DNA of 26,795 bases from Stentor roeselii (lineage: Eukaryota > Ciliophora > Heterotrichea > Heterotrichida > Stentoridae), in the NCBI GenBank assembly GCA_006503475.1, contig RSEH01000397.1, positions 1-26,795 of the forward strand, written 5' to 3'. This document shows positions 1 through 17,165 of the stretch, one piece after another (position 1 is the stretch's first letter; each line of letters opens with the position of its first letter). A program made the position numbers and the translations under genes. The notes below the pieces were generated by a model, which saw only the letters and a list, made by a program, of their open reading frames with translations, made no database searches and was not told the origin of the DNA.

Positions 1-2520
1 AGAGTGATGAGAGATGCTGTTCAAAGAATTGTTGGAGAAGGGTCGAAAGTAAAAGGAGCAATCAAACAAATTTACAACACAATGCTCAGAAAACCCAAGA
101 CAGCTTTCGATAAGTGGCGTACTTTTGTTGCTGATGTCAAACAAAAACGACTGTTCGATGGAATGAGATCTCAAAAACTGAAATCTGCTCTCGAAGGAAT
201 CATTAGAAGAACACTCAGAAATACAAGTCAAAGAGTTATTGGAGGAGGAAATATTATCAGGGGAGCTCTTCAAAACTTGATCAACGGCTTAAGGAATATT
301 CCAAAGAAATCTTTAAGAAGATGGAAGAAGACTGTTGAAGACATCAAAAACAAGAAACTGTTTGATAATGCTCGATCATTTAAACTTAAAGCATTCCTTG
401 TCAGTATTCCAAGAAGAACAATCAAAGAAGCTTACGAAAGAGTCAAAGGAATTATTTTTGCTGCTCCTTCAGTCAAAAAAATACTTCAAAGGTGCGACCA
501 GTTACTGAAACGTAAACCAAAACAAGCATTTGATAAATGGCGTAAGTTTGTTCATGCAGTCAACAATAATCTTATTCTGAATAACTTGAAGAGTCAAAAA
601 CTGCAAAACGCTTTAGTTCGAGTTCCAAGAAGAGTGATGAGAGACGCAGTTCAAAGAATTGTTGGAGAAGGTTCTAAAGTAAAAGGAGCAATCAAACAAA
701 TTTACAACACAATGCTCAGAAAACCTAAGACAGCATTCGATAAGTGGCGTACTTTTGTTGCTGATGTCAAACATAAAAGATTGTTCGATGGAATGAGATC
801 TCAAAAACTGAAATCTGCTCTTGAAGGAATTATAAGAAGAACACTCAGAAATACAAGTCAAAGAGTCATTGGAGGAGGAAATGTGATTAAAGGTGCTCTT
901 CAAAACTTAATCAACGGCTTAAGAAACATTCCTAAAAAAGCTCTTAAGAGCTGGCAAAAATACGTAGAAAATGTTAAAAACAAAAAGCTCTTCGACGAAG
1001 CCAGATCATCTAAACTGATGAACTGCCTTGGAAGACTTGATCGAAGAACAATGAAAGACTCATACGAGCGCATTCGAGGTCTCATCTTTGCTTCTCCAGC
1101 AGTGAAGGCTGTGCTAAAACGATGCGACCAGCTACTTAAACGCAAACCCAAACAAGCATTCGATAAATGGCGTAAGTTCGTTCAAGCAGTCAACAACAAC
1201 CTCATTCTCAACAACTTGAAGAGTCAAAAACTTCAAAACGCTTTAGTTCGAGTTCCAAGAAGAGTGATGAGAGACGCAGTTCAAAGAATAGTAGGAGAAG
1301 GTTCTAAAGTAAAAGGAGCAATCAAACAAATTTACAACACAATGCTAAGAAAACCCAAGACAGCTTTCGATAAATGGCGTACTTTTGTTGCTGATGTGAA
1401 ACATAAACGATTGTTTGATGGAATGAGATCTCAGAAGCTAAAATCTGCTCTTGAAGGAATTATTAAAAGAACACTCAGAAATACAAGTCAAAGAGTTATT
1501 GGAGGAGGAAATGTGATTAAAGGTGCTCTTCAAAACTTAATCAACGGTTTAAGAAACATTCCTAAAAAAGCATTAAAGAGCTGGCAAAAATATGTAGAAG
1601 ATGTTAAAAACAAGAAGCTATTTGATGGAGCCAGATCAGCCAAACTCAAGAACTGTCTGGGAAGACTTGATAGAAGAACAATGAAAGATTCATACGAACG
1701 TATCCGAGGTCTCATCTTTACTTCTCCAGCAGTGAAAGCCCTGTTAAAACGATGTGACCAGCTCCTAAAACGCAAACCCAAGCAAGCCTTCGACAAGTGG
1801 CGAGCATTTGTCCAAGCAGTGAACAACAACGAGATCCTAAGCAACTTAAAGAGCCAAAAACTTCAAAACGCTTTAATCCGAGTTCCAAGACGAGTAATGA
1901 GAGACGCTGTTCAACGAATAGTTGGAGATGGTTCAAAAGTCAAAGGCGCTATAAAGCAAATTTACAGTACAATCCTAAGAAAGCCTAAAGCCGCATTTGA
2001 CAGATGGAGAGCTTTTATTTCAGCAGTGAAACAAAAGAGACTCTTTGATGGTCTTCGATCTGAAAAGCTAAAATCCGCTCTTTCTTTGATTGTGAAGAGA
2101 ACTTTGAGGACTTCGAATCAAAGAATTCTTGGAGGAGGAAGTGTCGTTCGAGGTGCTATGCAATGTCTGATCAATGGACTTAAAAATATTCCGAAGAAAG
2201 CTCTTAAGAACTGGCTTAGTTATTTGCAGGCTGTCAAGGCGAAGAGACTTTTCGATGGAGCAAGGTCGTTTAAGCTTAAGAACTTCTTGGATCGCATTCC
2301 TCGAAGATCTTTGAAAGATACATGTGAGCGACTTAAAGGATTCATCTTCACTGGATCATCTGTTAGACAATCACTGCTTCGAATGGAGCAGGTCATTCGA
2401 AGAAAGCCGAAACAAGGTCTTGATAAATGGGTTCGATATGCGAATGCTGTGGATTCTCAACTTATCTTGAATAATCTAAAGTCTCAGAAACTTAAAAACG
2501 CTTTAACACGGGTTCCGAGA
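1..2520 (+). repeat. Higher-order tandem array: four 630-bp units
   Basis: The phrase AGAGTGATGAGAGA recurs at 1, 631 and 1261, with variants at 1891 and 2521, so the period is exactly 630 bp (210 codons). Each unit encodes three different sub-repeats: type A with a GEGSKVKGA loop (69 residues), type B with a GGGNxIxGAL loop (69) and type C with a G-I/L-I-F-x-x-P loop (72). In the first 60 bases, units 1 and 2 differ at 4 positions and units 2 and 3 at 2 positions, whereas unit 4 is clearly more diverged. A fifth unit starting at 2521 keeps A and B but not C. The array is in frame throughout and runs off the left edge. Confidence 0.95.
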
Positions 2521-5430
2521 AGAACGATGAGAGATGCTATGCAGAGAATTATAGGAGAAGGCTCCAAGGTAAAAGGTGCAATCAAGCAAATATACACGAC
2601 AATGCTCAAAAAGCCAAAATCCGCTTTCGACCGATGGCGATCATTCATATCAGCAGTGAAAGAAAAGCGTCTTTTCGACGGTCTCCGCTCTCAAAAGCTT
2701 CTAATAAGTTTGACCGGTATCTTAAAACGCAGTCTAAAATCCTCATCTTCTCGAATAATCGGCGGAGGCAGCGTAATCAAAGGTTTCCTAGAAAAAATCT
2801 TCAGACAAATCGAGAAACTTCCTCGCATTTCTTTGATCCGCTGGAAAAAACTAGTTCAAGACATGAACTCAAAGAAACTACTTGACAACCGCAAAGCTCT
2901 TCAACTTAAAAACGCTTTCGAAAGGATTCCAAGAAGGACTTCTCGAGGAATCCTTGAAAGAATTTTAGGACAAGGCTCAAGGACCATTGGCGCCCTTCGA
3001 AGACTTGCAATTTTAACAGGAAAACTTGGAAAAGTCGCTTTAGAAAGATGGAAAGGATTTGTGAAGAGAGCAGAAGGAAAAGGTTATCAAGATAAAGTTA
3101 GAGCTGCTATGTTGAAAAGCTTTTTAGAAAGGTTGGGAAGGGCTGGAACTAGAATGTCTTTCAGTAGAATTACGGTTGGACTTGATAATTGTGAAAATAA
3201 ACTTAATGCTTTAGCGAGAATTGGAAAGAAGAAACCGTTGAGAGCTATTGGAGGATGGAAAAATGCAACTGCTGTTAAGAAACTTTCTGCACCTCTTAGG
3301 GCGAATATGCTTAGGTTTGCTCTTAGTTGTATTCCCCTCCGAACGGTTAGGGGATGCTTTAATCAACTGGTTTGTCCTACTCCTGCATCGCAGAAATTGA
3401 GAGCCATTTTCCAGATATTTAGAAATGCGCCGAGAGATTCTTTTAATAGATGGAAGAAATTCATGTATCAGTGTATTAGAGGACAAATTTTAGATCGATC
3501 CCGGTCACAAAAACTCGAAAAAACCCTCCACAAAGTTCCTCTAAGAACAATCCGTGGAGCCTTCGGTCGTATAATCGGAGATGGTAGCAGAGTAAAAGGT
3601 GCTTTAAAACTTTTAATCCTCCGATGCCATCAAAGGCCAAGAACATCTCTAAACAAATGGAAAGAATTCATTCATAACATAAAATCCGGCCATCTCTTCA
3701 ACAACTTAAGATCGCATCAATTAAAAGGTCACCTAAGCAGTTTAATATCAAGAACAGTCCGAGTATCTTTCTTAAAAGTAATCGGTGCGACTCAAACTAT
3801 GAAGAACTGCTTCAAACTAACCGTCCACAAATATTTCCTGGCAAAAACAAGGACCTGGGACAAATGGTTGAACTTCTTATCAAGCGTAAGACAAGGCAGG
3901 TCTCTCGAAGCAATAAAAGCTCAAAAGTTGCGACATCTTCTTACAAAGACTTCAGTCAAGGTGATCCGAGGAGCTTTCGATCGAATAATAGGAGATGGAA
4001 GTCGATTGAAAGGCGCTTTGAGAAGACTTGAAATAAGTGTCAATAGGACTCAACTCTCAGCTTTTAAGATTTGGAACCAGTTATGCATCGTCGCTAAACA
4101 ACAAGATTCTTTAAAGAGATTAAAAGCAAGTCAGTTGAAGAACTCGTTAAGGAAAATTCCTTTTAGACTCCTTCGAGACTCCTTCGATCGAATCATCGGT
4201 GACGGGAAAAGAGTTGCAGGGGCTTTGAGAAGACTTGGACTGAGTGTCAAGTCAAGTCAAAGTAAAGCCTTTTTACTTTGGAAACAAAAGGTGTTCAGTT
4301 CAAAACACTCTGAACTTTCGAAAGGCAACAGAATGAGAAATAATTTACAGAAAGTTTTGGCAAGAACTTTACGACTCACCTTTAACAAGATCATGGGCGA
4401 CAAAAGAGCGATTCGAGCAGTTGCAAGACTTGTCAGGAATCAATCCTTGCAGCAAGTGACAGGATTAGAGAAGCTTAAAGAAAGAGTTTACAAGTCAAAA
4501 CTTATCAGAAAGATAAGTTCAGCGTTTATATTGATGAGAATGCTTAGGAATAAGGCAGATCAGATGCTTTGTGGAAGATACAACATCTGGAAAAACCAGG
4601 ACTGGCTTAAGAAAAGAAGACTTCTCAGAAAATACGTCCTGAGCTTTATGTTCCTCACACATATCAACTACCAAAGCGGTCTTTGGAGGTGGAAATACAC
4701 AATTATGCATCATTGGCATGAACTTCACCCACTTCACGCAATAATGTATAAGAGACTTGCCAATATCGCCTTTAACTATCAAAGACGATTGACACAATTC
4801 GCTCTTTTCAAGATTGTCTTGTTTTACAGGTCGAATTCAACGAATAGGAAAAAGAAAAGTATTCAAGCTGCTTTAAATACACTTTTAAGGGCTTCAGAGG
4901 AATATGAAAGGTCGAAGTCGCCGTCTGCCGACGGCTCCAGGACTTCGATTTTAAGCAGTGGGGAGCCGATGACCAGTCAGTTAAGTGCAGCGCCTTCTAC
5001 TAAGTTGAGTAAAGAAGAAGTCGTGGAAATCAATAAAGTCGGAGGGGCTGAGGTCTTGTTTATTCATTTAAGAGAAGCGAAAAAACGAAGGGCTGGATGG
5101 GCCTTGGCAAGTATCTGGACTTTCAGTAGAAATATCGGAATGTTTGATGATGAACGAAGTAGACTTGTTGAACAAATCAATGAACTCAGATATGATAAAC
5201 ATAGTTTACTTGAGGATAATACTGCACTTAGGATGCATAATGAAGCACTTATTGAGAATTTGGAAAAGACGAATATTGAGTTTGCTTCACTTTCTTTGCA
5301 TTTGGATCAGATGAGGATTGCGCGAATGGTCAGAGCTATTAGCAAGATGGTCGACTTGCCGGTATTGGAGTCTTTGATTATACTCAAACATTATAATCCG
5401 AAGGGAAATAGTTCGATTATCAGCAATTAG
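1..5430 (+). CDS. Giant W-repeat (Sfi1/spasmin-binding-like) protein, 5'-truncated by window edge
   Basis: The frame is open to base 1 (the first codons read R-V-M-R-D in the middle of a repeat), so the start lies outside the window; the stop is TAG. About 1,809 residues are visible. Roughly the first 1,480 are some 22 tandem repeats of 69-72 residues, very rich in K/R, each with a hydrophobic-F/L-x2-W core (AFDKWR, ALKSWQ), a following KLFD/RSxKLK segment and an RRTxR...RIIGxGSxVKGAL segment. The F-x2-W-K/R core resembles centrin-binding Sfi1 repeats, and large repeat scaffolds that bind centrin/spasmin are known from ciliate contractile fibres, so a myoneme or cortical scaffold role is my inference. 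After the repeats come a W/H/Y-rich region, an S/T/P-rich linker (about residues 1,640-1,680) and a C-terminal coiled coil (about 1,715-1,775). No transmembrane segment is seen. It is convergent with the TBC gene, 79 bp away. The repeat coding is certain; the function is not. Confidence 0.88.
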   Translation, partial: RVMRDAVQRIVGEGSKVKGAIKQIYNTMLRKPKTAFDKWRTFVADVKQKRLFDGMRSQKLKSALEGIIRRTLRNTSQRVIGGGNIIRGALQNLINGLRNIPKKSLRRWKKTVEDIKNKKLFDNARSFKLKAFLVSIPRRTIKEAYERVKGIIFAAPSVKKILQRCDQLLKRKPKQAFDKWRKFVHAVNNNLILNNLKSQKLQNALVRVPRRVMRDAVQRIVGEGSKVKGAIKQIYNTMLRKPKTAFDKWRTFVADVKHKRLFDGMRSQKLKSALEGIIRRTLRNTSQRVIGGGNVIKGALQNLINGLRNIPKKALKSWQKYVENVKNKKLFDEARSSKLMNCLGRLDRRTMKDSYERIRGLIFASPAVKAVLKRCDQLLKRKPKQAFDKWRKFVQAVNNNLILNNLKSQKLQNALVRVPRRVMRDAVQRIVGEGSKVKGAIKQIYNTMLRKPKTAFDKWRTFVADVKHKRLFDGMRSQKLKSALEGIIKRTLRNTSQRVIGGGNVIKGALQNLINGLRNIPKKALKSWQKYVEDVKNKKLFDGARSAKLKNCLGRLDRRTMKDSYERIRGLIFTSPAVKALLKRCDQLLKRKPKQAFDKWRAFVQAVNNNEILSNLKSQKLQNALIRVPRRVMRDAVQRIVGDGSKVKGAIKQIYSTILRKPKAAFDRWRAFISAVKQKRLFDGLRSEKLKSALSLIVKRTLRTSNQRILGGGSVVRGAMQCLINGLKNIPKKALKNWLSYLQAVKAKRLFDGARSFKLKNFLDRIPRRSLKDTCERLKGFIFTGSSVRQSLLRMEQVIRRKPKQGLDKWVRYANAVDSQLILNNLKSQKLKNALTRVPRRTMRDAMQRIIGEGSKVKGAIKQIYTTMLKKPKSAFDRWRSFISAVKEKRLFDGLRSQKLLISLTGILKRSLKSSSSRIIGGGSVIKGFLEKIFRQIEKLPRISLIRWKKLVQDMNSKKLLDNRKALQLKNAFERIPRRTSRGILERILGQGSRTIGALRRLAILTGKLGKVALERWKGFVKRAEGKGYQDKVRAAMLKSFLERLGRAGTRMSFSRITVGLDNCENKLNALARIGKKKPLRAIGGWKNATAVKKLSAPLRANMLRFALSCIPLRTVRGCFNQLVCPTPASQKLRAIFQIFRNAPRDSFNRWKKFMYQCIRGQILDRSRSQKLEKTLHKVPLRTIRGAFGRIIGDGSRVKGALKLLILRCHQRPRTSLNKWKEFIHNIKSGHLFNNLRSHQLKGHLSSLISRTVRVSFLKVIGATQTMKNCFKLTVHKYFLAKTRTWDKWLNFLSSVRQGRSLEAIKAQKLRHLLTKTSVKVIRGAFDRIIGDGSRLKGALRRLEISVNRTQLSAFKIWNQLCIVAKQQDSLKRLKASQLKNSLRKIPFRLLRDSFDRIIGDGKRVAGALRRLGLSVKSSQSKAFLLWKQKVFSSKHSELSKGNRMRNNLQKVLARTLRLTFNKIMGDKRAIRAVARLVRNQSLQQVTGLEKLKERVYKSKLIRKISSAFILMRMLRNKADQMLCGRYNIWKNQDWLKKRRLLRKYVLSFMFLTHINYQSGLWRWKYTIMHHWHELHPLHAIMYKRLANIAFNYQRRLTQFALFKIVLFYRSNSTNRKKKSIQAALNTLLRASEEYERSKSPSADGSRTSILSSGEPMTSQLSAAPSTKLSKEEVVEINKVGGAEVLFIHLREAKKRRAGWALASIWTFSRNIGMFDDERSRLVEQINELRYDKHSLLEDNTALRMHNEALIENLEKTNIEFASLSLHLDQMRIARMVRAISKMVDLPVLESLIILKHYNPKGNSSIISN
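2521..4450 (+). repeat. Diverged continuation of the 69-residue repeat array
   Basis: About ten further copies follow without the three-type order. After A and B of unit five come copies beginning IPRRTSRG, LGRAGTRM, IPLRTVRG, VPLRTIRG, LISRTVRV, TSVKVIRG, IPFRLLRD and VLARTLRL. Each keeps the RIIGDGSRVKGAL-like segment and a W in the middle, but nucleotide similarity is low. The last recognisable copy ends near 4450. Boundaries were judged by eye. Confidence 0.8.
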
Positions 5431-6648: not shown

Positions 6649-9600
6649 TCAAGTGCTGCTTATGACGCTGATCACTCGAGTAAGTTTCTTTGTCGGAGTC
6701 GATTCAAAGACAGAGTTTCCGATGGTCTTGTAAAGAAAGACAAGAATTCGACTTGCTTCATTTCGCACGTCAAGTCTGGAGTCGTCGATGAATTTATAAG
6801 CAAGGTTTAACAGTTCAACTTCTAAAAACGACTTATTTTTCATACCTGGAGCTTGGTTTACGATAATGTTTAAAACTAATGCTTTTCCTTTCGCTCCTGA
6901 TTTGCTGATATTTTCACAGAGAAGGGGAACTAACACGTCTGGACTTGTGTGAAGACCTAACAAGATGCAAACGTCACAGCCTGACTCTCGGATTGAAGTA
7001 TTTGAACAACCTAAAGCACTTACCACTGACTCCATTAAAAGACGTAAAAAAGGCTCGATTTCTGTTTTGAAAATCGGAATTAACTTTGAAAGATAACTTA
7101 AAGAATGAAGACGTACTTTTAAATTCGCGTCTTTTGAACCTTTTTCGATTATCATGAAAAAAGACTCAAGTTTTCCTAAGTCTTTCAAGGTTTTTTTACT
7201 GCTTTGGGCGAGTTCTAAACATGAGGTTATTGAATCGTATCGTATTTTCCAGTCGTTATTTAAGATGTCCTGCTCGAGTTTCACGAGTTTTAAAAGTTCT
7301 TCAGGTTCTGTCTCAGGTTTTGAAAGGACTGCGATTAGATCTCGAGCACTTTTTGTTACAAGTTTTTTACTTTTGAAGTTACTGAGACTGGGAAGAGTGA
7401 CTCTTAGTTCTTTTTTCGAGATTAAAGAACTTGAAATTGAATGCGACTTCAACTTTTTCTTGAATTGTTCTTTCACCTTTTTAAATGTCGAGTATTTCAA
7501 CCCAGGAGCTGAGACAAGGTCAATAATCCCTTCATCTGAAATACTTTCTAAAAGTAAAGAATAAGCTTGTTTTGCGTTACTTCTTACTTCAGCACTTGCA
7601 TCACTTTGAGAATCATCTAAAAACTGGATAAGTTTTCCTAGATCAGAGAATTTTTGCATGTTTTTCCCTGTTTTTTCAATGAGAATTGTAAGACAAGTTA
7701 AAACTTTCGCCTTGATTGAAGGGTTTCGATTCTGTTCAGCGTAAATCACTAAAAAATTGAGAACTTTTAACTCTGTTAAATTTTTACAGACAGCAGTTAA
7801 ACCTTCATCGGCGGTTTCAGCTAGAAACGAGTTGGTATCTGCCGCTTTTTTAAGTAAAATCTTCATAACTTCAATAATTTCGCTATCTAGAACCTTGCCA
7901 AGACTCAAGCAAAGCTCTTTAATAGCGATAAGCGAGTTTTTACTAAGACTCGATCGAAGACTATCTGCCCATTTCACCAGATTAACAACGAATCCATGAA
8001 GAGTGACTTTACTGATGAAGACTTCAGGGTTGTGTTTCGCAAGTTTTCGAATTGTGTTGATGATTTCGAACTGTTCAAACCAGACTTCTGTATGAAAAGT
8101 TGCTTTTTGTAGAGCTTCTGAAGGATGAGGTAGTTTTTCCAGTTCTTCAAAAGGAATGTAAATCGGGTTAGGCTCTGAGAAGTTAGAAGGAGGATTACTT
8201 GAGTTACTTGAAGACTTATGAATGCTGATCACTGATCTTGAAGTCTTTGTTAAGAACCCTTTACGACTGGTTCTAGTTGAATAAGTCTCAGCAGTGGTAG
8301 GTGTTTGTGACTTGACATTTTCATAAGACGTGCTCATGACCTTCAGTCTTCCATCAGGTCCTTCAAGTCTTTCATTCCTTTCATTAATCTCGACACTGTC
8401 CAAGGGTGTTGTCATAAGATAAGGACTTGAAATCATCCTGACGTCCATCGGGATCTCTTTAGACAAAATCACGTAATCCTCTGTTATCATCGGCAGGGTG
8501 TTAACTGAAAATCGCTCATGCAAACACTTCAAAGCTTCTCCATCAACGATCTCTGAAAGTCGCTCCAAGACCACCCCCTGGCCGTAGATATGCCCAAGGA
8601 CTGCAAGGGCTTCTGTTGAAACTGCTCGAATTTTAGTTCTTGAATCATCTAAAAGCTTTGCAAGTTTTTCTATAGTCGTCATGAAGTCGAAGGACTGGGA
8701 ATAAGAAAGCATTGAAAAGATCAACATCATGACAGACTCTTCTCGAATGTGCCAGTTTGAATGGTCTAAGATTTTAGTTAATGAATACATCACTTCTGAG
8801 GTGTTAAGAATGAGGAACTCTCGGATTAACTTGTGGATTGATTGTCTTATTGAAATTTTTGTGTCTGAGAACTTTAGGAGGAGTGGTGGGAGGATTGTGA
8901 AGATTTCTTTTGGTTCGGAGAGTTTTGATTTTGATGTTAGGAGTTGGAGGATCTCGACTATTTGCTTTGTTAGTTGGGAATGAGGGTCTTGGATTGTTTT
9001 TGAAAGGAGGGTGATTAGGTCGGAGATGTTCGAGGATATTAGGGAAAAGTCTTCGAGAGATTCAAGGGTTTCTTTTAAGATTTCGAGAAGGTCGCATTTT
9101 TCTTTCCAGGAGTTGCTGCTCCAGAGTCTTTCTACTACTTTCGCAGGGACACATCCAAAAGCCAAATCTCCTTTAATTTCAAACGGTACTCGTTGTCCTG
9201 AATCATTAATAATCTTAATCAATTCAGCTGAAGCGTTTTGCACATTAATCGACAAGTCCTGAGCCAAACTTTCAAGAAACGTTTTCATATCATTTAAATC
9301 AATTCCAGAGTACGCCAAATCACAAGCAAGTCTCAAAGTAGCAAGTTTTAATTCTTCACTTTTTCTCGAAATTCCACTTTCACAGAGATTTTTACAAACA
9401 ATCTTCAAGTCTCCAGTCTTGCGAACGACCTCAGCGAAGAAACTCATTAAAAATGAATGAGTCTGGTACTTCCTGAATTTAAGCAAATGGATCAAATCGG
9501 GTATTAAGGTCAAAATCGGACTGATGAGCGAATGACTCAACAGCTGAGTGATCAGAGGAAGAATTTTAGAGACTATTTCAATATCTGGCTTTTTTAAGTG

Positions 9601-9729
9601 GTTTTTAAAGGAATTCACCACTTCGTATAATTGGCTTTCGGTCAGTGGGAAAAATGAAGACAGTGAGTTGAGACTTGAGAGTTGAGAAGATTTATCAGAA
9701 CTGTTGAGATTTGTGAGAATTAAGTCCAT
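6649..9729 (-). CDS. TOGARAM1: Crescerin/TOGARAM-type TOG-array microtubule protein
   Basis: The product has 1,026 residues (ATG 9729, stop TGA) and is almost wholly HEAT-like helices. The layout is TOG1 (about 1-175), TOG2 (about 195-400), a polar S/T-rich linker (about 400-540), TOG3 (about 540-745) and TOG4 (about 795-1010): the 2+2 arrangement of crescerin/TOGARAM1, which binds tubulin and sets ciliary length. TOG3 keeps the family pattern of HETTF-like, SLRSSLSK, KILLKKAADTNSFLAE and ALTAV-like helices. TOG2 and TOG4 carry the usual W-x-I/V-R turns (SNWHIREESV, NDWKIRYDSI) and D-D-S-R-x-K/D-V/I-R helix starts. CLASP and XMAP215 are the alternatives, but domain number, linker position and the TOG3 resemblance favour TOGARAM. 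It lies in a minus-strand run, 93 bp after the BPI-like stop. The gene symbol denotes orthology judged by eye. Confidence 0.85.
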   Translation of the reverse strand: MDLILTNLNSSDKSSQLSSLNSLSSFFPLTESQLYEVVNSFKNHLKKPDIEIVSKILPLITQLLSHSLISPILTLIPDLIHLLKFRKYQTHSFLMSFFAEVVRKTGDLKIVCKNLCESGISRKSEELKLATLRLACDLAYSGIDLNDMKTFLESLAQDLSINVQNASAELIKIINDSGQRVPFEIKGDLAFGCVPAKVVERLWSSNSWKEKCDLLEILKETLESLEDFSLISSNISDLITLLSKTIQDPHSQLTKQIVEILQLLTSKSKLSEPKEIFTILPPLLLKFSDTKISIRQSIHKLIREFLILNTSEVMYSLTKILDHSNWHIREESVMMLIFSMLSYSQSFDFMTTIEKLAKLLDDSRTKIRAVSTEALAVLGHIYGQGVVLERLSEIVDGEALKCLHERFSVNTLPMITEDYVILSKEIPMDVRMISSPYLMTTPLDSVEINERNERLEGPDGRLKVMSTSYENVKSQTPTTAETYSTRTSRKGFLTKTSRSVISIHKSSSNSSNPPSNFSEPNPIYIPFEELEKLPHPSEALQKATFHTEVWFEQFEIINTIRKLAKHNPEVFISKVTLHGFVVNLVKWADSLRSSLSKNSLIAIKELCLSLGKVLDSEIIEVMKILLKKAADTNSFLAETADEGLTAVCKNLTELKVLNFLVIYAEQNRNPSIKAKVLTCLTILIEKTGKNMQKFSDLGKLIQFLDDSQSDASAEVRSNAKQAYSLLLESISDEGIIDLVSAPGLKYSTFKKVKEQFKKKLKSHSISSSLISKKELRVTLPSLSNFKSKKLVTKSARDLIAVLSKPETEPEELLKLVKLEQDILNNDWKIRYDSITSCLELAQSSKKTLKDLGKLESFFMIIEKGSKDANLKVRLHSLSYLSKLIPIFKTEIEPFLRLLMESVVSALGCSNTSIRESGCDVCILLGLHTSPDVLVPLLCENISKSGAKGKALVLNIIVNQAPGMKNKSFLEVELLNLAYKFIDDSRLDVRNEASRILVFLYKTIGNSVFESTPTKKLTRVISVISST

Positions 9730-13178: not shown

Positions 13179-14276
13179 TTAATAAATAGTCTTCGGTGAA
13201 TAATTCACTTCTATTATATCTTCTGCTCCATCTTCATTATCTTTCATTAGACAAGTTCTGATACCAGTTCGCTTCACTGCATCAAGTTCCATTTTTAGCT
13301 TTCCTTTACCGTAGACTTCTAAGTTTTCAAAGCAAAAATGCTTGATTTCTGCTTTACCCTTCTTGAACTCTTGAACCTTTTTCCTGAAATAATCAGTATT
13401 CCTCAGTCCATCAATTTCTTTTTCTTTTTTCGTACTCATTAGGACCCTTTCCTGATAAATTTTTTTAGATTGAAGAGTATTCATTTCATCACTAGTCAAA
13501 ACCAGGGGTGGCTGAGGCTGTGAATAAAGCCCAGCCCTGAGTTCATCATACCAAAACTTCTGACTTCTAACTTCATTCATTTTCTGCACCTTATCAATAA
13601 CTTCAATTTCCTTCTTCCTTACTTCAAAAGCCTTAGCTGAGTTAAGTCCCAAATCTTCAGGATTCTTTTGAACCTTTTCAGCCAAATACCCTTCAATTTT
13701 TTTCCAATAATCTCTTTGTTTCTCATAAGCCTTCAAAGACTTAGTCTGCGAAAGCCAAGTGATTTTCCCTCCAGGAGTAAGTTTTAAAACTTCTCTTTCT
13801 TCCTGATCTCGAGAAGTTTTCATAGCATCTCTGATAACTCTGAGTCTTTCATCAAATCCCATAAGTTTCGGCATCGTGAATCGAGTTTTATCAAGTTTCA
13901 AAGTATTTCTATGAGGACTTCTTGCAGTCTGAGGTTTAAAAATGTTTGCTTTTTTGTAGTAAAGATCTTTTGGTCCAACGATATTCGTGGGTGTTAAAAT
14001 GTTTTCAGTTCTTAGAGGAGGGACTGGAGAGATCAACTCGAAGTTACTCTTGCAAGAATTGTGACTTAAGAACTGGTCTGGGTGTTCTGAAAAAGAGAAA
14101 AAGTCGTCTTGAATGCTGTTTGGAATTGGGGACTTTAAAGCATCAGGGTCGATTTTTTTAGCGATTTTGTAAACTTTTGTCCTTGGAGACACTTTTTCTA
14201 TTAAAATTTTTCGACGGACTTTTAATGTCTTTGTCTGTTTCACAGTAGGAGTTTCGTTTATCATTAATAATGACAT
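13179..14276 (-). CDS. Unrecognised basic, helix-rich protein (365 aa)
   Basis: The start is ATG 14276 (a second ATG four codons later is possible) and the stop is TAA. The N-terminal 150 residues are disordered-looking, rich in K, S, P and T, with TARSPHR-like basic patches. Residues about 155-335 are charged helices (GFDERLRVIRDAMK, LKAYEKQRDYWKKIEGYL, EVRKKEIEVIDKVQKMNEV) with aromatic punctuation such as SQKFWYDELRAG. No signal peptide, membrane span or catalytic motif is seen. Small basic helical proteins of this kind are common among axonemal and cortical microtubule proteins of ciliates, but I do not recognise the family and assign no function. Its start is only 13 bp after the stop of the upstream stalk-like gene on the same strand. 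Confidence 0.82.
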   Translation of the reverse strand: MSLLMINETPTVKQTKTLKVRRKILIEKVSPRTKVYKIAKKIDPDALKSPIPNSIQDDFFSFSEHPDQFLSHNSCKSNFELISPVPPLRTENILTPTNIVGPKDLYYKKANIFKPQTARSPHRNTLKLDKTRFTMPKLMGFDERLRVIRDAMKTSRDQEEREVLKLTPGGKITWLSQTKSLKAYEKQRDYWKKIEGYLAEKVQKNPEDLGLNSAKAFEVRKKEIEVIDKVQKMNEVRSQKFWYDELRAGLYSQPQPPLVLTSDEMNTLQSKKIYQERVLMSTKKEKEIDGLRNTDYFRKKVQEFKKGKAEIKHFCFENLEVYGKGKLKMELDAVKRTGIRTCLMKDNEDGAEDIIEVNYSPKTIY

Positions 14277-14289
14277 CTACTTAAGTTAA

Positions 14290-15249
14290 TTAAAAGCAGA
14301 AAAAACTAGATCTACAACACCCAAGTTTCTCATCAAATTCGTAAAATGATTGAAAATTTTCTTGTTTCAAATCGGTTTTCAAGAAGTAACCTTCATCAGC
14401 TTCTTCCACTTCTGGCATGAGTTTTTGTTTAGACTCTGTTGAATTCAAAATGCCTCTTGAAGCTGTTATTTCTGAAAAGTCATTTGAACCAATAACCCGA
14501 TTTGCGAAAGGCGAGTTGAAAGAATTCTCAGCAGTTTCATATTCAACACTTTTCGGAGAATCACTTTTGAAGCTATCAAGTTTCTGTTGAATTAAAATAA
14601 TCTGAAGATTAATCTGGTTTAGTTTTGCTTTAGTCAAATTTAGCTTTCTTTTCACCCTAATTACTTTTTACATGATATTTTCCTTAATCCCCTGGTCAAG
14701 ACTCGCTTCTTTCGCTCTGAACTCCAGTAAAAACTTGATCAGCTCTCCAAGAGTCCCAACGTTTTTCGGGTAGTTCTTGAGTTTCAAGTTGATAACTCTG
14801 TAGTTATCTAAAAATAAAGAACTTGTCGATTGAAAGTTACAAGGAATATCTTCAGGTGACAACTGCATCACTTTTTCTAAAAAGACTTCAGGAGACTTAC
14901 ACAGTTTTTTGAATTTCGGCCAACTTTCATCGATTTCATTTGTCAAGATTAGAAAAATTTCAGAAAGTTTAACAAGAGTCGTGTTCGGGTTTTTTATTTG
15001 ACTCATTTCTTGAATGGACTTATGTGAAAAGGCGAACTTGACGTTAGAGATTTTTTCTTTTGTATTAAAAAGCTCGGATTTATGTGATTTTAACTGAGAT
15101 TGAGTTGTGATGAGAGAGGAAGAAAGAGATGAAAGTTGGGCTTCGAGTCGTCCTTGCATCAGCTTCAGGCTTGAAAGTTGGAAGGATAGTTGAGAGTAGT
15201 TTATGCGGAAGGACTTTGGATTGTTTTTTTGCAAAGAGTTTGGCTCCAT
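14290..15249 (-). CDS. Dynein-stalk-like coiled-coil protein (spliced, one 15-nt intron)
   Basis: Two open frames, 15249-14672 and 14656-14290, join in frame when the 15-nt intron at 14671-14657 is removed; the split codon becomes ATG and the product has 314 residues (stop TAA). Without splicing a TAA follows at once and the second part has only a GTG to begin. Residues about 17-75 form a coiled coil, 86-178 a compact helical region and 178-225 a second coiled coil. The middle follows the dynein microtubule-binding domain pattern: NP at 87-88, TLVKLSEIFLIL, a tryptophan at 110, then FLEKVMQLSPEDI and a closing LIKFLLEFRA helix, flanked by the two stalk helices. There is no AAA motor. A free-standing microtubule-binding stalk is my inference. 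The C-terminus is acidic and ends CCRSSFFCF. It sits between the 365-aa gene (13 bp) and the coiled-coil gene (19 bp). Confidence 0.82.
14657..14671 (-). other. 15-nt spliceosomal intron
   Basis: Read on the minus strand it is GTAAAAAGTAATTAG. It starts GTAA, ends AG, has A at position 10 and contains an in-frame TAA. Removing it fuses two frames that otherwise lack a stop-free link and a proper start. Size and pattern match heterotrich ciliate introns. Confidence 0.88.
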
Positions 15250-15268: not shown

Positions 15269-17005
15269 TTATATGATGAAGTTGCATAAAAGGGACTGAA
15301 GACGGAAGAGAATTGATGAAAATTCAGATTTTGTGGAATAGGATTGGCAGAGGTACTCGAGTGAATCGAATTCACGCTTTAGGGATTCTTTTAGCGTAGA
15401 GGCTTTTTCGTAGAAGTTGGAAAGTTTGGATTTTAGTCTTTCGGAATATTTTTCGCTTTGGAGATTGAATTCCTCGTTTTTACGAAGAAGTTGCAATTTA
15501 TAAAAATCTCCTAATTTCTCCATTTCCTCCTTTTTAATCTCATTAATTTTCACAATCTCCCCACTTAATCTCCAACAATCAGCAACACTAGTTTCCAAAT
15601 TCCGACTCAATCCCAAGACTTTCGATTCCAATTCAGCCAAAGCAAGCTGAAGTTTATTTCGATCATCATTAAGCATCAAGACCTCCTCATCTCGATTCCT
15701 AATCAAATTTGCAAGTTCTGCCTGATTTTTAATCATTTCATTTTTAATCCTAGAATTTTCCTCATTCAACAAATCATTTTTCTTAACAAATTCCTGATTC
15801 AAACTTTCTACTTTTTGCTGAAAATTTTCTTCAATTTTCTTGATTTTCGCCTGTAAATTCGAATTTTCCATTTTCAAGTTTTTTGCTTCATTCAAATACG
15901 AGTTTTCAATATTCTTCAATTTTTCATCAAACCTTAAAAGTGACTGATTGAGTTTCGAATTTTCCATTTCAAGTTCTTTGATTTTTTCTTTTCTTTTTGC
16001 AGACTTTTCAAGTAAATCTCGATATCTGGCTTGAAGAAGACTGTCAGTCGAGGTGAGGTTTTCCAGTTCTTCTTTAACAAACTTTAAGTCGTGTTCAAGT
16101 CGAGTGATAAGTGAGACTTTTCTGGAGTCTTCTTTATTGAAAAAGTTTGACTTGTTTTCAAGAGTGACATTCATTCTTTCCATCTCAGAGTTGTATTTAG
16201 CTGTCAGGTCTTTGATCAGTCTTTCAGTACTTTCAAGTTTAACTTTATGACTTTTTACTTCTTCTTGAGAGATTTTCGCCTTTGCCGCTACTTCAGATAA
16301 AGAAATTTCTAAAGCGACTGACCGTGACTTGGTATCTTCAAGTGTTCTATGTTGTTCCATGTAAAGTTTTTCTCGATTTTCTAGTTCATGCTTGGAAACA
16401 GCAAGTTTTTCTTTTGTTTCTTGAAAAGATTTGAAAATGACTGTTTTTTCTTCTTCAAGATTTTTCAGTTTTTTCTCGAGTTCTCTTTTAAGGTTGGATA
16501 ATTTTTCGTATTCTGCTTTAATCAGACGATTTTCCTCAGACATGAGTTTCATTTTGTCCTCCAAGTCAATCATTGTGCCGTTCCATTGCTTGATGATCTC
16601 GCTTTTCGCCTGCAGTTCAACTTTGAAGTCTTGAACCAAGTAATTCGACTTCTCTGAAGACATTTCCAGGTCTTTCAAGCGTTTTTGACTGATTTCTAAG
16701 TTGTAGCTTAAGTCTTCATTGTCTTGCTGGACTTTCAAAGCTTTTTCAAGAAGTTCTTCGTATTTTGATACGATTTCTTTGTTTTCTTGAGTGGTCACTC
16801 GCAGTTGGTAGGATTTTTCTTCAAGTTCTTGTTGGTAAGAGACCTGCATTTGAAGGGAATCTTTTAGTTTACGGTCGTATTCGTGTAGAGTTCTTTGGCT
16901 GTGCTCTAGTTCTTCTTGAAGGATCTTGATTGTATCACGGCATTTTCGTAGAAGTGAGTCTTTGTTGGAGATTTCGCTGTTTTGTAAGCTGTCTTCCATA
17001 TTCAT
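15269..17005 (-). CDS. Long coiled-coil protein (578 aa)
   Basis: The start is ATG 17005 (MNMEDS) and the stop TAA. Residues about 10-545 are nearly unbroken charged heptads rich in E, K, L, N and S (for example KILQEELEHSQRTL, LKRELEKKLKNLEEEK, IKELEMENSKLNQSL), with few prolines, so a long rod is predicted. The last 35 residues leave the heptad pattern and turn aromatic and hydrophobic (SSILFRLQSLLCNFII). Coiled coils of this kind serve basal body, cilium, Golgi or cortical scaffolds; the sequence does not say which, and simple coiled-coil similarity is not evidence of homology. It lies 19 bp before the start of the stalk-like gene and 160 bp downstream of the Ca2+ ATPase stop, on the same strand. 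Confidence 0.88.
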   Translation of the reverse strand: MNMEDSLQNSEISNKDSLLRKCRDTIKILQEELEHSQRTLHEYDRKLKDSLQMQVSYQQELEEKSYQLRVTTQENKEIVSKYEELLEKALKVQQDNEDLSYNLEISQKRLKDLEMSSEKSNYLVQDFKVELQAKSEIIKQWNGTMIDLEDKMKLMSEENRLIKAEYEKLSNLKRELEKKLKNLEEEKTVIFKSFQETKEKLAVSKHELENREKLYMEQHRTLEDTKSRSVALEISLSEVAAKAKISQEEVKSHKVKLESTERLIKDLTAKYNSEMERMNVTLENKSNFFNKEDSRKVSLITRLEHDLKFVKEELENLTSTDSLLQARYRDLLEKSAKRKEKIKELEMENSKLNQSLLRFDEKLKNIENSYLNEAKNLKMENSNLQAKIKKIEENFQQKVESLNQEFVKKNDLLNEENSRIKNEMIKNQAELANLIRNRDEEVLMLNDDRNKLQLALAELESKVLGLSRNLETSVADCWRLSGEIVKINEIKKEEMEKLGDFYKLQLLRKNEEFNLQSEKYSERLKSKLSNFYEKASTLKESLKREFDSLEYLCQSYSTKSEFSSILFRLQSLLCNFII

Positions 17006-17165
17006 AATGTTTTAATCTCTTATTCAAAGTTTTAAAATTTATGATTGGAAAGTTGAGAGTTTTAAAAATTTTTTGTTGATTAGAAGAGTTTTATTGAATA
17101 GATTTGAGGAAATTGAAAATATTCAGAAATTTGGTTGAAAGTCGAATATTATTAAAAAAAGAATA

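Follow-up and report, generated by a model that had tools for sequence, protein, structure and literature searches.

We analyzed the whole of one Stentor roeselii contig (RSEH01000397.1; contig C343 below), a stretch of 26,795 nucleotides referred to here as the window. The list of open reading frames (ORFs), together with splicing, places a gene on its minus strand at 15249-14290, with the ATG at 15249 and the stop at 14292-14290. Its spliced product (W343, or the window copy) has 314 amino acids and is arranged as a coiled coil, a head of ~100 residues, a second coiled coil, and a tail, which bears out the order of coil, compact domain, and coil that a sequence-only reading of this DNA had given for a 314-residue product. 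Exon 1 (14672..15249; minus strand, as are all features of the gene) encodes residues 1 to 192 and two bases of codon 193 and spans the first coil, the head, and the start of the second coil. It is followed by a 15-nt phase 2 intron, GTAAAAAGTAATTAG (14657..14671), and by exon 2 (14290..14656), which contains the remainder of the second coil, the tail, and the stop codon TAA. The first coil (15013..15201, about residues 17 to 79, limits approximate) is the equivalent of dynein CC1, with a hydrophobic pattern in register with CC1, and is helical in an AlphaFold2 model of low overall confidence. The head, placed by the earlier reading at 14710..15012, corresponds exactly to residues 80 to 180 and is homologous to helices H1 to H6 of the dynein microtubule-binding domain (MTBD), without the axonemal flap. 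The pattern that had first drawn attention to dynein (NP at the stalk junction, VKL...I..L, a Trp, and FLEKV...LSPEDI) is indeed present in the protein. The second coil, the equivalent of dynein CC2 (14539..14709, about residues 181 to 232, limits again approximate), is interrupted by the intron. The tail carries the motif TASRGIL (14446..14466) and ends in GCCRSSFFCF (14293..14322).

In size and in the position of its branch-point A (10), the intron matches most introns of Stentor coeruleus, which an excerpt of PMC9505925 gives as 15 nt long with that A at position 10. Genes in the window use TAA, TAG, and TGA as stops (standard code), and this code together with 15-nt introns is in keeping with a heterotrich such as Stentor (PMC9505925). 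A 365-aa MYCBPAP-family protein (by Pfam; 13179-14276) is encoded on the same strand, its ATG lying 13 bases past the stop of the dynein-head gene, and a 580-aa coiled-coil-like frame without a Pfam match (15269-17011), also on this strand, has its stop 19 bases before the ATG of that gene. Elsewhere in the window are a 1026-aa TOG/CLASP-like protein (6649-9729; Pfam CLASP_N and a CEP104-like TOG), which is likely a microtubule protein, and a 1809-aa open frame (1-5430) that runs off the window and contains many degenerate repeats (KPKxAFDKWRxF..., RRTLRxxxQRVIGGG), its Pfam matches being weak and scattered.

Pfam found no dynein or AAA+ motor family in the ten main ORFs of the window (nine scanned at E ≤ 0.001 and one at E ≤ 0.01), and among these ten the earlier statement that no AAA domain is encoded nearby holds; 12 other ORFs of ≥100 codons, outside the scan, overlap them in other frames. 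An AAA+ ring is likewise absent from the polypeptide itself, as the 314-aa gene has its own stop. The heavy chains of this genome (44.4 Mb in 522 contigs) lie elsewhere: 23 stalk matches were found, in open frames of 1825 to 4658 codons.

A genome search for relatives, which the sequence-only reading had suggested, was productive. Searching with the window protein and its relatives recovered nine genes of one design on nine contigs: C343 (the window), C10, C79, C3, C29, C481, C460, C63, and C89. We refer to them as the tailed family. Neighbors of the paralogs were viewed as ORFs within about 1.5 kb, and Pfam scanning covered ten ORFs of the window. In C10 the second coil is likewise interrupted by an intron, which agrees with that of the window gene in phase and alignment position, and C3 and C481 have another intron in common, in phase 0, where the first coil begins. 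All nine proteins end in (G/K)CC(R/K/S)xx(F/L/Y)(F/L)CF followed by the stop, and C10 has an additional Leu. Four positions never vary (9/9): the two of the CC pair, the final Cys, and the Phe that follows this Cys. The other tail motif varies more, being TASGGI/L in C79, C29, and C481 and ASGGLL in C10, and it is lost or altered in others. When the last 53 residues of C29 were used as the query, all 7 matches in the genome were family members; since this search missed C343 and C10, it is no proof that the motif is confined to the family. Cys-rich protein ends of this kind suggest S-acylation, by which the tail might anchor the protein.

Several other matches were set aside. C440 (0.0014) and C324 (0.0011) were not taken as members, since their matches are confined to the first coil of the query. 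A 227-codon frame at C64:94350-95450, with the end RSKFFLFN, resembles C89 (5.2e-8) and may be a tenth member that has decayed and lacks the Cys pair; the family profile does not match it, and it was left out of all counts. Further weak matches were C441 (0.90), C338:83080 (0.23), C69 (0.46), C313 (0.56), and C179, C56, and C77 (1.7 to 2.2).

Single-sequence searches with the window protein gave no sign of dynein. The Pfam dynein stalk profile (MT, PF12777), which the sequence-only reading had put forward as a check, did not match it up to E 10, phmmer against the PDB found no dynein, and a profile built from the heavy-chain stalks of this genome scored it at only E 0.31 (Z set to 20000). An AlphaFold2 model of exon 1 made without an alignment was too poor for use (pLDDT, 54.9). 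The dynein link became visible only through the paralogs. Of the nine members, all scanned, only C29 matches Pfam MT, above the cut-off of 24 bits (24.8 bits in one scan; 25.3 bits and E 9.7e-6 in another), and as a single query it matches one of the genome's own heavy-chain stalks at 3.5e-6. The heavy-chain-stalk profile, again with Z = 20000, matches C460 (2.7e-12), C29 (5.3e-9), C63 (2.9e-8), and C3 (1.1e-5); C10, C79, C481, and C89 are absent from its matches. When a profile of all nine members was searched against all PDB chains, the best 24 matches were dynein heavy chains or MTBD constructs, the top one being dynein-2 (2e-11), and coiled-coil proteins came next, from E 0.008. Of these 24, 21 are named as dynein; the other three (8glv_Cn, 8glv_Fm, and 9fqr_Hl) carry other labels and are chains of 4191 to 4625 aa matched at the stalk position.

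The similarity persists in heads stripped of their coils. Aligned by hhalign with the 23 heavy-chain stalks, the coil-free heads of the nine members score 60.1 (E 7.3e-9 over 99 columns). None of 200 column shuffles scored above 27.4, and the reversed alignment gave 13.0. The window head alone matches the heavy chains at E 5.5e-6 over 60 columns and the other family heads, minus C10, at 6.6e-9 (both single-pair E values). Among fold markers, the junction Pro is present in 8/9 members, and the Trp of H6, which is found in all 23 heavy chains, is kept in 7/9, having been lost from the window copy and C10.

The coils are in phase as well. We compared the hydrophobic pattern of the family with that of the 23 heavy chains, counting positions from the junction Pro and from the H6 Trp column and averaging over 8/9 members (C89 excluded). 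At zero shift the correlation is 0.57 for the first coil (48 positions) and 0.62 for the second (50 positions), values that none of 20000 permutations reached, and all other shifts from -5 to 5 give ≤0.38. Taken singly, members have their best first-coil shift at zero in 7/9 cases (not C481 or C89) and their best second-coil shift at zero or at plus or minus 7, which is the same phase, in 9/9. The window copy alone gives 0.44 and 0.43 at zero shift, with 0.52 for its second coil at shift -7, in the same heptad phase. The family profiles, the head-only profile comparison, and the coil register together support the earlier proposal of a free-standing, motorless dynein stalk and head, and we regard this identity of the window gene product as very likely. 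On sequence grounds, the gene is one of a family of nine that descend from dynein stalks, lack the motor, and share one architecture and a conserved C terminus.

Set beside the dynein heavy-chain stalk and MTBD (PF12777), the tailed family has the junction Pro and H6 Trp at the frequencies given above, H1 to H6 in order, and flanking coiled coils in identical heptad register. It differs in having no linker, AAA ring, dynein tail, or flap, in an N terminus that begins at the stalk, in a new conserved C-terminal tail, and in the partial loss of tubulin contacts. It also resembles the MTBD constructs made in the laboratory with a short stalk or as seryl-tRNA synthetase fusions (3err, 3j1t, and 6rzb), which are also motorless heads on a shortened stalk in which a fixed coil register sets the state; those are engineered, whereas the tailed family is genome encoded and has its own tail.

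We propose that the window protein is a static, passive linker of fixed affinity, anchored by its tail, and give this reading a probability of roughly 0.4. The stalk would form an antiparallel coiled-coil hairpin, some 7 heptads long and tipped by the head, with none of the linker, AAA ring, or dynein tail of a motor. With no AAA ring to shift the coil register, the head would be held in one fixed state and would not cycle. What remains would be a rod, with the head at one end facing microtubules or a nearby partner and a flexible tail at the other, the Cys- and Phe-rich end of which could attach to a membrane through S-acylation or else bind a fixed partner. Microtubule arrays of a large ciliate-like cell might be tied to the cortex or to vesicles by such a link. 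A fixed linker would be the simplest use of such a rod, and a head repurposed for another partner ranks as nearly as likely.

Tubulin contacts bear on both possibilities. Excerpts of two papers (PMC7042235 and PMC12706001) describe six dynein residues that contact tubulin; five of these were mapped on our alignment, the sixth being yeast R3152. The mouse numbers, which we counted from R3342, are our own, as are some of the equivalences. The tailed family has Lys at the end of CC1 in 5/9 members versus 19/23 heavy chains, Glu in H1 in 6/9 versus 18/23, Arg or Lys in H1 in 6/9 versus 23/23, a basic residue at the H3 R3342 position in 0/9 versus 6/23, and one at the H6 R3382 position in 5/9 versus 6/23. 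The H1 position of K3316 is basic in 0/9 members versus 13/23 heavy chains. On average, 2.44 of the 5 mapped contacts are kept in the tailed family versus 3.13 in heavy chains. A linker that grips microtubules is favored by C29, C460, and C63, which keep 4/5 contacts and so exceed the heavy-chain mean, and disfavored by the window copy, C481, and C89, which keep 1/5, as well as by the two positions that are basic in none of the nine. Some members could still grip microtubules, and others, the window copy included, may have changed partner.

The distribution of conservation has moved too. Measured as mean pairwise identity within helices, whose limits we assigned ourselves, conservation in the 23 heavy chains is highest in H6 (0.49) and H1 (0.35), followed by H3 (0.27), H2 (0.24), H4 (0.21), and H5 (0.19). 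Six tailed members have another order (H4, 0.62; H5, 0.43; H2, 0.39; H1, 0.34; H6, 0.29; H3, 0.27), and all nine give 0.39 for H2, 0.38 for H5, 0.32 for H4, 0.28 for H1, 0.26 for H6, and 0.20 for H3. The shift away from H1, H3, and H6 relative to heavy chains has a column permutation p of 1e-4 with six and nine members alike, a test that treats columns as independent, which they are not, and that draws on few paralogs. Contact counts and helix conservation thus do not uphold a canonical tubulin face that has simply been kept. The sequence-only reading had joined to the dynein identity a role as microtubule reader, competitor, or docking element; the identity stands and the role is at most tentative, given the single mapped contact of the window copy and, across the family, a conservation that has left the tubulin-facing helices.

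This pattern is what would be expected if, in at least part of the family, the fold and stalk had been kept and the head now bound a protein other than tubulin, as an adaptor or scaffold would. We rate this as a serious possibility, though short of even odds. Helices 4 and 5 of the six members would be the candidate surface, and the sparse contacts of W343 fit. Against it, the helix-4 motif INExLPxWK is absent from W343, C10, and C89, which is why H4 identity falls to 0.32 over nine members, and the motif is thus missing from the window copy itself. Three members keep 4/5 contacts, the basic residue at R3382 is proportionally commoner than in heavy chains, and the conservation of H4 and H5 could mark a new tubulin contact, comparable to the flap that contacts tubulin in DNAH7 according to an excerpt of PMC6629372.

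A further argument for the fixed linker concerns the position of E3378. An excerpt of PMC4987762 reports that E3378K in mouse dynein-1 slows dynein and lengthens its runs. This position is acidic in 18/23 heavy chains and in 0/9 tailed members, and a nonacidic residue in all nine could suit a linker that does not release. The genome's own dynein-1 (Ala) and C131 (Ser), which by its sequence we take to be dynein-2, are also nonacidic here, which weakens the reading of this position as a lock. Two other kinds of motorless head, described below, also count against it, as C100 has Ser (acidic in 0/1) and the C136 heads keep the acid (4/4).

Free heads might instead take up the sites that dynein uses on microtubules, thereby limiting or sorting motors. 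Their homology to the heads of the genome's 23 heavy chains fits such competition, which we nevertheless consider improbable: the window copy retains few contacts, a pure competitor would have no need of a conserved C terminus, and filling the lattice would presumably take very high abundance. That the gene is a pseudogene or a mis-split piece of a larger gene, as its very tight spacing to same-strand neighbors (19 and 13 bases) might hint, is hard to credit given nine copies on nine contigs with a common C-terminal motif and stop, two conserved intron positions, and no AAA domain in the ten window ORFs scanned. Equally far-fetched is the idea that an unrelated coiled-coil protein resembles dynein by chance, which the failed Pfam MT match, the poor single-sequence model, and the heavy-chain profile value of the window protein would allow and which the coil-free head match, the in-phase coils, and the dyneins at the top of the PDB-wide profile search contradict.

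The tip of dynein is usually studied as a part under motor control. A family that retains the stalk and its register and lacks the motor is a natural counterpart of the engineered constructs and allows the function of the head to be studied at a fixed register. As a linker, it would suggest that a piece of a motor has found new use as a passive connector; more broadly, the family would either extend the range of microtubule-associated proteins by one type or exemplify a motor part turned adaptor. Searches of the open-licence PubMed Central literature brought up no paper that, judged by title and start of abstract, has motorless dynein stalk genes as its subject. Single members may presumably be covered, unstudied, by automatic names in protein databases, e.g., dynein heavy chain coiled coil stalk domain-containing protein.

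The genome holds two other kinds of motorless head. At C136:37440-41196 (minus strand), four tandem genes of 151 to 174 aa encode a dynein head with very short coils. A profile of these heads places cytoplasmic dynein MTBD constructs first (2.7e-10), and in single-sequence searches their closest heavy chain in the genome is C522 (4.8e-7), which is dynein-1 (1e-23); Pfam MT has no match up to E 0.01 in the two of these four genes that were scanned. At C100:613-1197 (minus strand), near a contig end, lies a 195-aa free stalk head that matches Pfam MT at 5.7e-13 and is 42% identical to heavy chain C127. Like the tailed family, it is a free stalk head; unlike it, it carries no tail motif and clusters with C127.

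A tree built from 37 rows and 179 columns has the tailed family as one group (99/93), with C89 on a very long branch, and the C136 set another (92/92). Both lie on one side of a branch (98/96), where long branches may have pulled them together, and C100 joins C127 (100/99). An AU test rejects the tailed family, C136, and C100 as one clade (p 0.002), which points to at least two separate origins of motorless heads; it does not reject C136 with dynein-1 (p 0.085) or the tailed family with C131 (p 0.087), the groupings tested having been named after the tree had been seen. A broader reading, in which the dynein stalk and head were freed at least twice to give at least 14 motorless genes and the tailed proteins are a new class of microtubule clamps, anchored in a membrane and locked because they lack the acidic residue that tempers the affinity of dynein, seems to us rather unlikely as a whole. 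The 14 genes comprise the nine tailed members, the four tandem mini-heads, and the one heavy-chain stalk copy.
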